Below are positions 19,835 through 20,993 of a stretch of DNA of 39,643 nt, one piece after another. The stretch spans positions 1 through 39,643 of the forward strand of contig JAFCDB010000002.1 of assembly GCA_017609885.1 (NCBI GenBank), given 5' to 3'. The notes beneath the pieces are model-generated. The model ran no database searches. It saw only the letters and a program-made list of their open reading frames with translations, and had not been told where the DNA came from. Each line of letters starts with the position of its first letter. The stretch's first letter is position 1. This stretch comes from Candidatus Pacearchaeota archaeon. Its GTDB lineage: Archaea; Nanobdellota; Nanobdellia; Pacearchaeales; GW2011-AR1. The translations under genes were made by a program, and so were the position numbers.

Positions 19835-19875
19835 GTTGTGAAATATATTTTAATATATATAAAACTTTGGAATGA

Positions 19876-20085
19876 TTTCAGTATCTCCGACAGTTACGAA
19901 TGATTTTGGAATTCACAATCTTGGGGGGGCGAATACGGGAGTGGCGAGTGATTTGACGAGTGAGTTTCAAAAGGGTGCAAAAAGGCGAGTCAAGTCGCGA
20001 GAAAGGGCGGGTTTCCGACGAAGGAGGATTTATAGGGGGAATCTAGAATTCTAAAATCATTATGTGTCATCGGACAGATCCTGAT
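19876..20085 (+). ncRNA. Candidate structured non-coding RNA
   Basis: A GC-rich core of about 130 nt (19915-20045) stands out in an A/T-rich genome. Long complementary arms flank it: AATGATTTTGGAATTC (19899-19914) pairs with GAATTCTAAAATCATT (20046-20061) with one G-U, and TCCGA further out (19886-19890) pairs with TCGGA (20070-20074). A TATA-like run (TTAATATATATAAAAC, about 19850-19865) lies just upstream. A 60-codon frame inside has no protein-like features. I do not find RNase P, SRP or 5S signatures. Strand is inferred from the TATA. Confidence 0.4.
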
Positions 20086-20090
20086 TTAGG

Positions 20091-20231
20091 GGCTTTGGTG
20101 AAATCATTAAATTTTTGAACATTTTTCTCAATTCCCTACCCGCCCGCCCAGCATTGCTCGACATGATTTGTCTCGCAATGTAGATTTTAAATTGAGAAAA
20201 ATGTTATATATCTTATGATTTCACCAAAGCC
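20091..20231. mobile_element. MITE-like element, 141 bp, with 8-bp target duplication
   Basis: The terminal inverted repeats are perfect over 17 bp: GGCTTTGGTGAAATCAT at 20091-20107 and its complement at 20215-20231. After about 10 unmatched bases, a second perfect 16-bp pair follows (AACATTTTTCTCAATT, 20118-20133; complement 20190-20205). Directly outside both ends is the same 8-mer, GATTTAGG (20083-20090 and 20232-20239), a classical target-site duplication. There is no transposase frame inside; the centre has a C-rich stretch and a small CATTGC/GCAATG hairpin. An 8-bp duplication with ends starting GGC recalls IS6- and IS1595-type elements, which may supply the transposase. Confidence 0.85.
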
Positions 20232-20273
20232 GATTTAGGAAAAGTTTATAAATTTATTTTGAAATTTATATTT

Positions 20274-20993
20274 ATGGAAAGTTTTGTGAAAAAGATTTTT
20301 GATGGAAGCATTGATGAAAGTGTTAAGTTGCAATTTATGAAATTTAGCAGGGGAGAATTTAAAGATAGGGCGCTTGTTGATGCTAGAAAATCAAGAGGCA
20401 AATTTTCGATTGCTATGAGTTATGAATATGCTAATGAATTGGTGAAGGCAGTTGCTGAAAAGATTGATGAGGGTGAAAGTGTTTTGATGAGTGGGGCGAT
20501 TATTTCTACGAGGAACTTAAAAGAGATTCCGGAGTTTCATAATTTATTAGCTCATTGTAAAGTTAAACAGTTTCAGGGTGTTCGAAAATTTTTAATTGAT
20601 ACTGAGATATCAAAAGAAAAGATATTTGAATTATGTGAGAAATTTCCTAAATCTTTTTTGGCGCTTTCTTTTAAAGTGGGAGATAGTGAATTAAAGATAA
20701 AGCCGAAGGCGCCGAAATCTGGGAAACCGGGGAAGGGAGATAAAAAACCCAAAGTTGATTTTTGCAAGTTGAAGACTACTGATGTTAATTTGGTTAAGGG
20801 AATTTTATTTGATGTTGGAGAGTTTAAGAAAATTTCAATTAATCACACATTTTTAATAAATGAAATTGATATCCCAAAAGATGAAAAAGATTCTGTTTTA
20901 ATGAGAGAGAGGGCGGTAAGGAAGGGGAAGGTAATTCGGAAGATTGAGGTTGATGGGAGAGAAGAGGAAAGAGAAGTTGAGTTTGTGATTTGA
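20274..20993 (+). CDS. Conserved-looking hypothetical protein, 239 aa
   Basis: The start at 20274 (MESFVKKIFDG) is chosen because a TATA-like GTTTATAAAT (20244-20253) lies about 26 bp upstream; a TTG at 20259 is less likely. The sequence has an N-terminal alpha/beta part (MKFSRGEFKDRALVDARKSR), a central Lys/Pro-rich linker (KPKAPKSGKPGKGDKKPK, about residues 144-161) and a C-terminal beta-rich domain ending in charged strands. The MITE lies directly upstream of its promoter. I do not recognise the family. Confidence 0.7.
   Translation: MESFVKKIFDGSIDESVKLQFMKFSRGEFKDRALVDARKSRGKFSIAMSYEYANELVKAVAEKIDEGESVLMSGAIISTRNLKEIPEFHNLLAHCKVKQFQGVRKFLIDTEISKEKIFELCEKFPKSFLALSFKVGDSELKIKPKAPKSGKPGKGDKKPKVDFCKLKTTDVNLVKGILFDVGEFKKISINHTFLINEIDIPKDEKDSVLMRERAVRKGKVIRKIEVDGREEEREVEFVI

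Follow-up and report, generated by a model that had tools for sequence, protein, structure and literature searches.

The window, a stretch of 39,643 nucleotides, corresponds to contig C5 in a Pacearchaeota genome of 750 kb and 37 contigs that is about 89% complete (a metagenome bin, as are all the genomes compared here), and it harbors an inverted-repeat element directly upstream of a protein-coding gene. The features of this locus are as follows.

20083 to 20090, no strand: target site duplication (TSD) GATTTAGG, left copy, 8 bp
20091 to 20231, plus strand: MITE of 141 bp, non-coding, with about 30 copies genome-wide
20091 to 20107, plus strand: left terminal inverted repeat (TIR) GGCTTTGGTGAAATCAT, common to the IS5-type parent
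20118 to 20133, plus strand: inner inverted repeat, left arm AACATTTTTCTCAATT
20134 to 20189, plus strand: core, with a C-rich stretch and an inner small hairpin
20190 to 20205, plus strand: inner inverted repeat, right arm AATTGAGAAAAATGTT
20215 to 20231, plus strand: right TIR, the promoter-facing end
20232 to 20239, no strand: TSD GATTTAGG, right copy, -42 to -35 from the ATG
20240 to 20244, plus strand: BRE-like purine-rich AAAAG, directly upstream of the TATA box, -34 to -30
20245 to 20252, plus strand: TATA box TTTATAAA, -29 to -22
20274 to 20993, plus strand: target gene, encoding a conserved protein whose function is unassigned

The right end of the element (20215-20231) is the exact reverse complement of GGCTTTGGTGAAATCAT at 20091-20107, and the inner arms (20118-20133 and 20190-20205) form a perfect 16-bp pair. 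Re-checking of the coordinates showed that the original description of an intact MITE, its 17-bp ends perfect, its inner pair 16 bp long and its duplicated target site 8 bp, was exact to the base. The single-strand fold of the region has a z of -7.7, with 0 of 200 dinucleotide shuffles as good, and a search for a known RNA family at the hairpin found none. The 141 bp seem non-coding, as none of the six frames is both free of stops and at least 50 codons long, and the core (20134-20189) is unrelated to the IS ends, the likeness stopping at the TIR.

The proposed search of the same genome for further copies of the TIR yielded about 30 catalogued MITE copies, nearly all of them intergenic, together with ends of a longer element. 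Identity among most of the full-length copies is 90-97%, dropping to near 75% in diverged subfamilies, so that the recent movement initially suggested is plausible, if undated. The 8-bp duplications of the intact copies differ (TTTGATTT, CCAAAAAC, TGAATATC, TATCTTAG, ATTAATGG, CGTTTTCA, TCAATAGA and others). Because the same sequence occupies about 30 places in the genome, and each intact duplication is a different 8-mer, the repeat is not a product of chance. It is a genuine MITE of a multicopy element family: short, non-coding, bounded by TIRs and a target duplication, present at unrelated sites and sharing its TIRs with an autonomous element. When the MITE core was sought in 139 relatives, marginal short matches only were obtained. 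Directly to the left of the MITE, the window also carries a dispersed G-rich repeat unrelated to it (19860-20075), with 35 matches in the genome, the best being 83-97% identical over parts; this repeat also adjoins the MITE copy at C26:16222.

The longer element bearing the MITE termini is represented in this genome by at least 14 ends, recovered with the TIR and mostly lying at contig breaks, about 95-115 bp from a contig end, which indicates that contigs were cut short within a longer repeat. One of its ends opens a reading frame (MNKQSELYKFLASARN...) and the other closes one (...YHQRSKVETVFSVIKRKYGSFVLSRSFETQKRE...), and the transposase pieces of this genome match the DDE transposase family PF01609. 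Complete copies of about 0.9 kb are found in related genomes: L076 (308 aa) in G030, which belongs to the same family as the own genome, and L192 (919 bp, flanked by the exact TSD AATAAACG) in G142. The transposase from G030, tested in place of the own-genome one, which is assembled in pieces, scores 150.6 bits against the NCBIfam IS5 model NF033579 (cut-off 140). The parent transposase contains the DDE domain (PF01609, 3.8e-20) and a Y(2)R(3)E(6)K-type stretch, YHQRSKVETVFSVLKRK, while the TIR starts with GG and begins GGCTTTGGTGAA; the 919-bp length of L192, its TIRs and the constant 8-bp TSDs are those of the IS5 family. A full-length IS with the same ends thus exists, as had been anticipated; the earlier remark that the C-rich internal segment has nothing obvious in common with known IS missed the recognisable IS5-family parent to which shared ends and transposase lead. 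Searched against the genome contigs, the G030 transposase matched only G030's own record. ISL3 and IS1595, considered on account of the 8-bp TSD and the GGC ends, were rejected as parents, PF01610 and PF12762, respectively, not being found in this genome. In contig C15 of the own genome, transposase pieces run, across a stretch of N, into the beginning of an open frame unrelated to them (L059, 1-852), where the assembly has probably made a false join or collapsed an IS; the same contig gives, on the minus strand, an Rfam match to the 3' part of a large-subunit rRNA (bacterial model; L006, 2152-2391).

The shared TIR (GGCTTTGGTGAA...) and 8-bp TSD suggest that the IS5-family transposase would move the MITE in trans. 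Elements of MITE size (about 120-150 bp) that have these ends around other cores are present in G005 (L107/L123) and G185 (L200, L212, L214), and because the ends are kept while the cores differ, this IS5-type family seems to have given rise to MITEs more than once. Some MITE copies have no second terminal arm: their sequence stops within the inner arm, at or just inside the arm equivalent to 20190-20205, so that 106-113 bases are kept. The second TSD follows directly after this internal stop at C29:21539 (AGTTTTCA), C29:4808 (TGAATTTA) and C26:16222 (TTAAATTA), and of the lost end about two bases remain at C36:39864, 8 at C27:63920 and about 12 at C19:2348. One-armed copies could also be read as assembly errors; the exact TSD directly adjoining the internal stop suggests interrupted gap repair after excision, in which copying would have stalled at the hairpin. 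Such interrupted repair is known for cut-and-paste elements in animals.

The protein encoded by the target gene has no Pfam or NCBIfam match, and a homologue was found in 24 of the 24 genomes searched. As originally noted, a TATA box (TTTATAAA, 20245-20252) begins 13 bases past the element, ahead of the ATG at 20274. Over the whole window, TATA scores peak at -29 from the ATG, which is the layout of leaderless archaeal genes, and the genome encodes a TFB. The orthologous locus was inspected in the six congeneric genomes G001-G006, where the proteins are 51-60% identical; all six promoters have the TATA box at -29 and none has the MITE, hence the promoter pre-dates the insertion. In Pyrococcus furiosus, the BRE has been mapped at -36 to -32 and the TATA box at -30 to -23 (PMC6640164), and by these positions the TSD lies right against the BRE on its upstream side, and the insertion has not disrupted the core promoter. 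The suggestion that the MITE may alter the promoter is consequently doubtful for the core promoter, as only the DNA upstream of about -42 has been replaced. The possibility that the TATA box is part of the element was rejected: the TSD separates the two, the TATA box is usually one-sided and the orthologous promoters possess it although they lack the MITE.

The nearness of the TATA box, true as it is at this locus, is no local accident; the flanks in the own genome reveal it as a general insertion rule of the family. The set comprises 44 entries with 61 flanks (one IS insertion accounts for two entries, one per flank), an ATG was counted only where it opens a frame of at least 40 codons, and promoters and transcription starts in the spacing analysis were called from sequence. 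Aligned outward from the element, the flanks consist of the 8-bp TSD, five A-rich bases, the TATA box, about 21 bases and the ATG, that is, element, TSD (-42 to -35), BRE, TATA (-29) and start. In half of the sites (22/44, versus 4.0% of random intergenic window positions, p about 2e-19), the first base of the TATA box is 14 nt away from the end of the element, and a match of at least 7/8 at 0-based offset 13 occurs in 38% of the flanks versus 1.1% at distant offsets. A start codon lies 42-49 nt from the element end at 26/44 sites and an ATG at 42-44 at 20/44 (versus 4.1% of random intergenic window positions, p about 1e-16); in 17 flanks the ATG is at exactly 43 nt, where offsets outside 42-49 average 0.19 (Poisson tail about 1e-25). 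The rule is obeyed by both element orientations and by MITE and IS alike, and the site C6:12661, which has a longer leader with the ATG at 53, still keeps the element-TATA distance. About one third of the sites have no clear TATA box at the right place (e.g. C26:10205, C23:11020 and C36:50605). We consider it probable, from these alignments, that members of this IS5-type family insert at one set distance from archaeal core promoters, immediately upstream of them.

The spacing recurs in several other genera, in genomes of the order that carry this terminal repeat. Of 51 flanks there, 37% have the TATA box at offset 13, versus 1.6%; since chance pattern matches and far flanks were left in this list, the figure probably understates the true fraction per site. 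The ATG is at 43 in eight of these flanks, the clear cases being G185, G141, G193, G005, G073 and G019. On contig C35 of G142, the complete IS (L192, 1501-2419) lies upstream of TTTATAAA, which is followed by a 16S rRNA gene, a target without a start codon, indicating that the mark is the promoter and not the start codon. At least two copies in G057 lie in long open frames and have, at this same offset, weak TATA-like words only. In G114 (loci L160-L175), an abundant IS that is more distantly related, makes 9-bp duplications and has the ends GGCTCTGTAGAAATCC, and which serves as a comparison set and no clean negative control, gives a weaker TATA signal at offset 15, and promoter preference may therefore be wider among archaeal IS5-type elements.

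The model proposed here is that the transposase would make an 8-bp staggered cut just upstream of the BRE, at about -42 to -35 from the leaderless start, using either element orientation at this fixed position, and that the spacing would be set at integration and not by selection. The transpososome could recognise the promoter through TBP-TFB, the pre-initiation complex on the BRE-TATA, or could read the BRE-TATA DNA directly; we think the former slightly likelier. The spacing to the TBP/TFB site, as located from sequence, is fixed, as tethering to these factors demands. Among intergenic TATA-like words, a gene start at 42-44 is found for 40/463, as compared with 14/23 at insertion sites (p about 3e-9), and tethering is favoured because insertions choose promoters among words that are mostly non-promoter.

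In a credible variant of this model, which we rate distinctly below even, TBP and TFB take no part: the transposase itself would recognise an A-rich BRE together with TTTAWAWA at about 9 nt from the cut centre, and promoters would be hit for carrying this motif. A TATA-like word is found at the same offset in some coding insertions (L131, L133), and under a strict motif (a perfect TATA box plus AA in the BRE) the promoter excess, 4/5 versus 11/21, is not significant, so that direct recognition stays in contention. It fits poorly, however, with the degeneracy of the TATA boxes used and with the one-sidedness of the signal, since a strand-transfer complex should be symmetric, and it does not account for the choice of promoters when TATA-like words of at least 7/8 are mostly non-promoter. 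Much less probable is near-random insertion followed by selection, the survivors being just those copies located upstream of promoters in a gene-dense genome. Open reading frames fill about 91% of the window, nearly every own-genome copy lies between genes and the purging of harmful insertions can explain the empty TATA-to-start interval, yet selection cannot bring 17 of the 44 sites to the very same base, and tolerated intergenic positions farther upstream are not comparably used; since selection alone cannot yield single-base precision, we infer targeting during integration. Hardly tenable is an immobile cis-regulatory or RNA hairpin unit kept for promoter function, which the strong hairpin and the constant place upstream of promoters might recall, but which is refuted as the sole explanation by the exact site-specific 8-bp duplications, the occurrence of the element in both orientations, the ends common to a transposase-encoding IS and the orthologous promoters without the repeat; single copies may still have been co-opted later.

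An element that lands upstream of the core promoter leaves the host gene unharmed, a benefit where the genome is compact. Should the model be correct, the insertion sites would be natural promoter maps for uncultivable archaea, and could lead to promoter-directed insertion tools.

Among known systems, the family resembles the IS903- and ISH1-like groups of IS5 in its DDE transposase, the YHQRSKVETVFSVLKRK stretch, the GG-starting TIRs and the length of about 0.9 kb. The TIR of the MITE and its parent resembles the end of IS903, GGCTTTGTTGAA; ISH1 makes an 8-bp TSD, and IS903 prefers palindromic targets. Unlike these relatives, the elements described here would use as target a directional promoter element at fixed spacing. 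Prokaryotic MITEs such as the Correia elements are likewise short and non-autonomous, have TIRs and are often found upstream of genes; no fixed core-promoter spacing was found described for them in a review, which mentions neither TATA nor DPANN (PMC10969869). A literature search, which reached few subscription papers, found no description of promoter-spaced IS insertion in archaea.

A counterpart in targeting is Ty3, in which TFIIIB (TBP-Brf1) guides the integrase by proven protein tethering (PMC8632968). Ty3 shares with the present family the precise distance to the transcription start, the use of promoters bound by TBP and a TFIIB-type factor, and the sparing of the gene; it differs in being a yeast LTR retrotransposon that targets Pol III genes and inserts 2-3 bp upstream of the start (PMC8632968), on the other side of the TBP site, and its tethering is established where that of the archaeal elements is proposed from sequence. 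We tentatively suggest, with a little less than even confidence, that in a whole clade of IS5-type DNA transposons of DPANN archaea the transpososome is guided by the TBP-TFB pre-initiation complex, an independently evolved prokaryotic counterpart of TFIIIB targeting by Ty3. Transposons of compact genomes are pressed to land harmlessly, and the answer of Ty3 is TBP plus Brf1; if the suggestion holds, the same solution would have evolved again in archaea, whose TBP and TFB are homologues of the machinery that targets Ty3.
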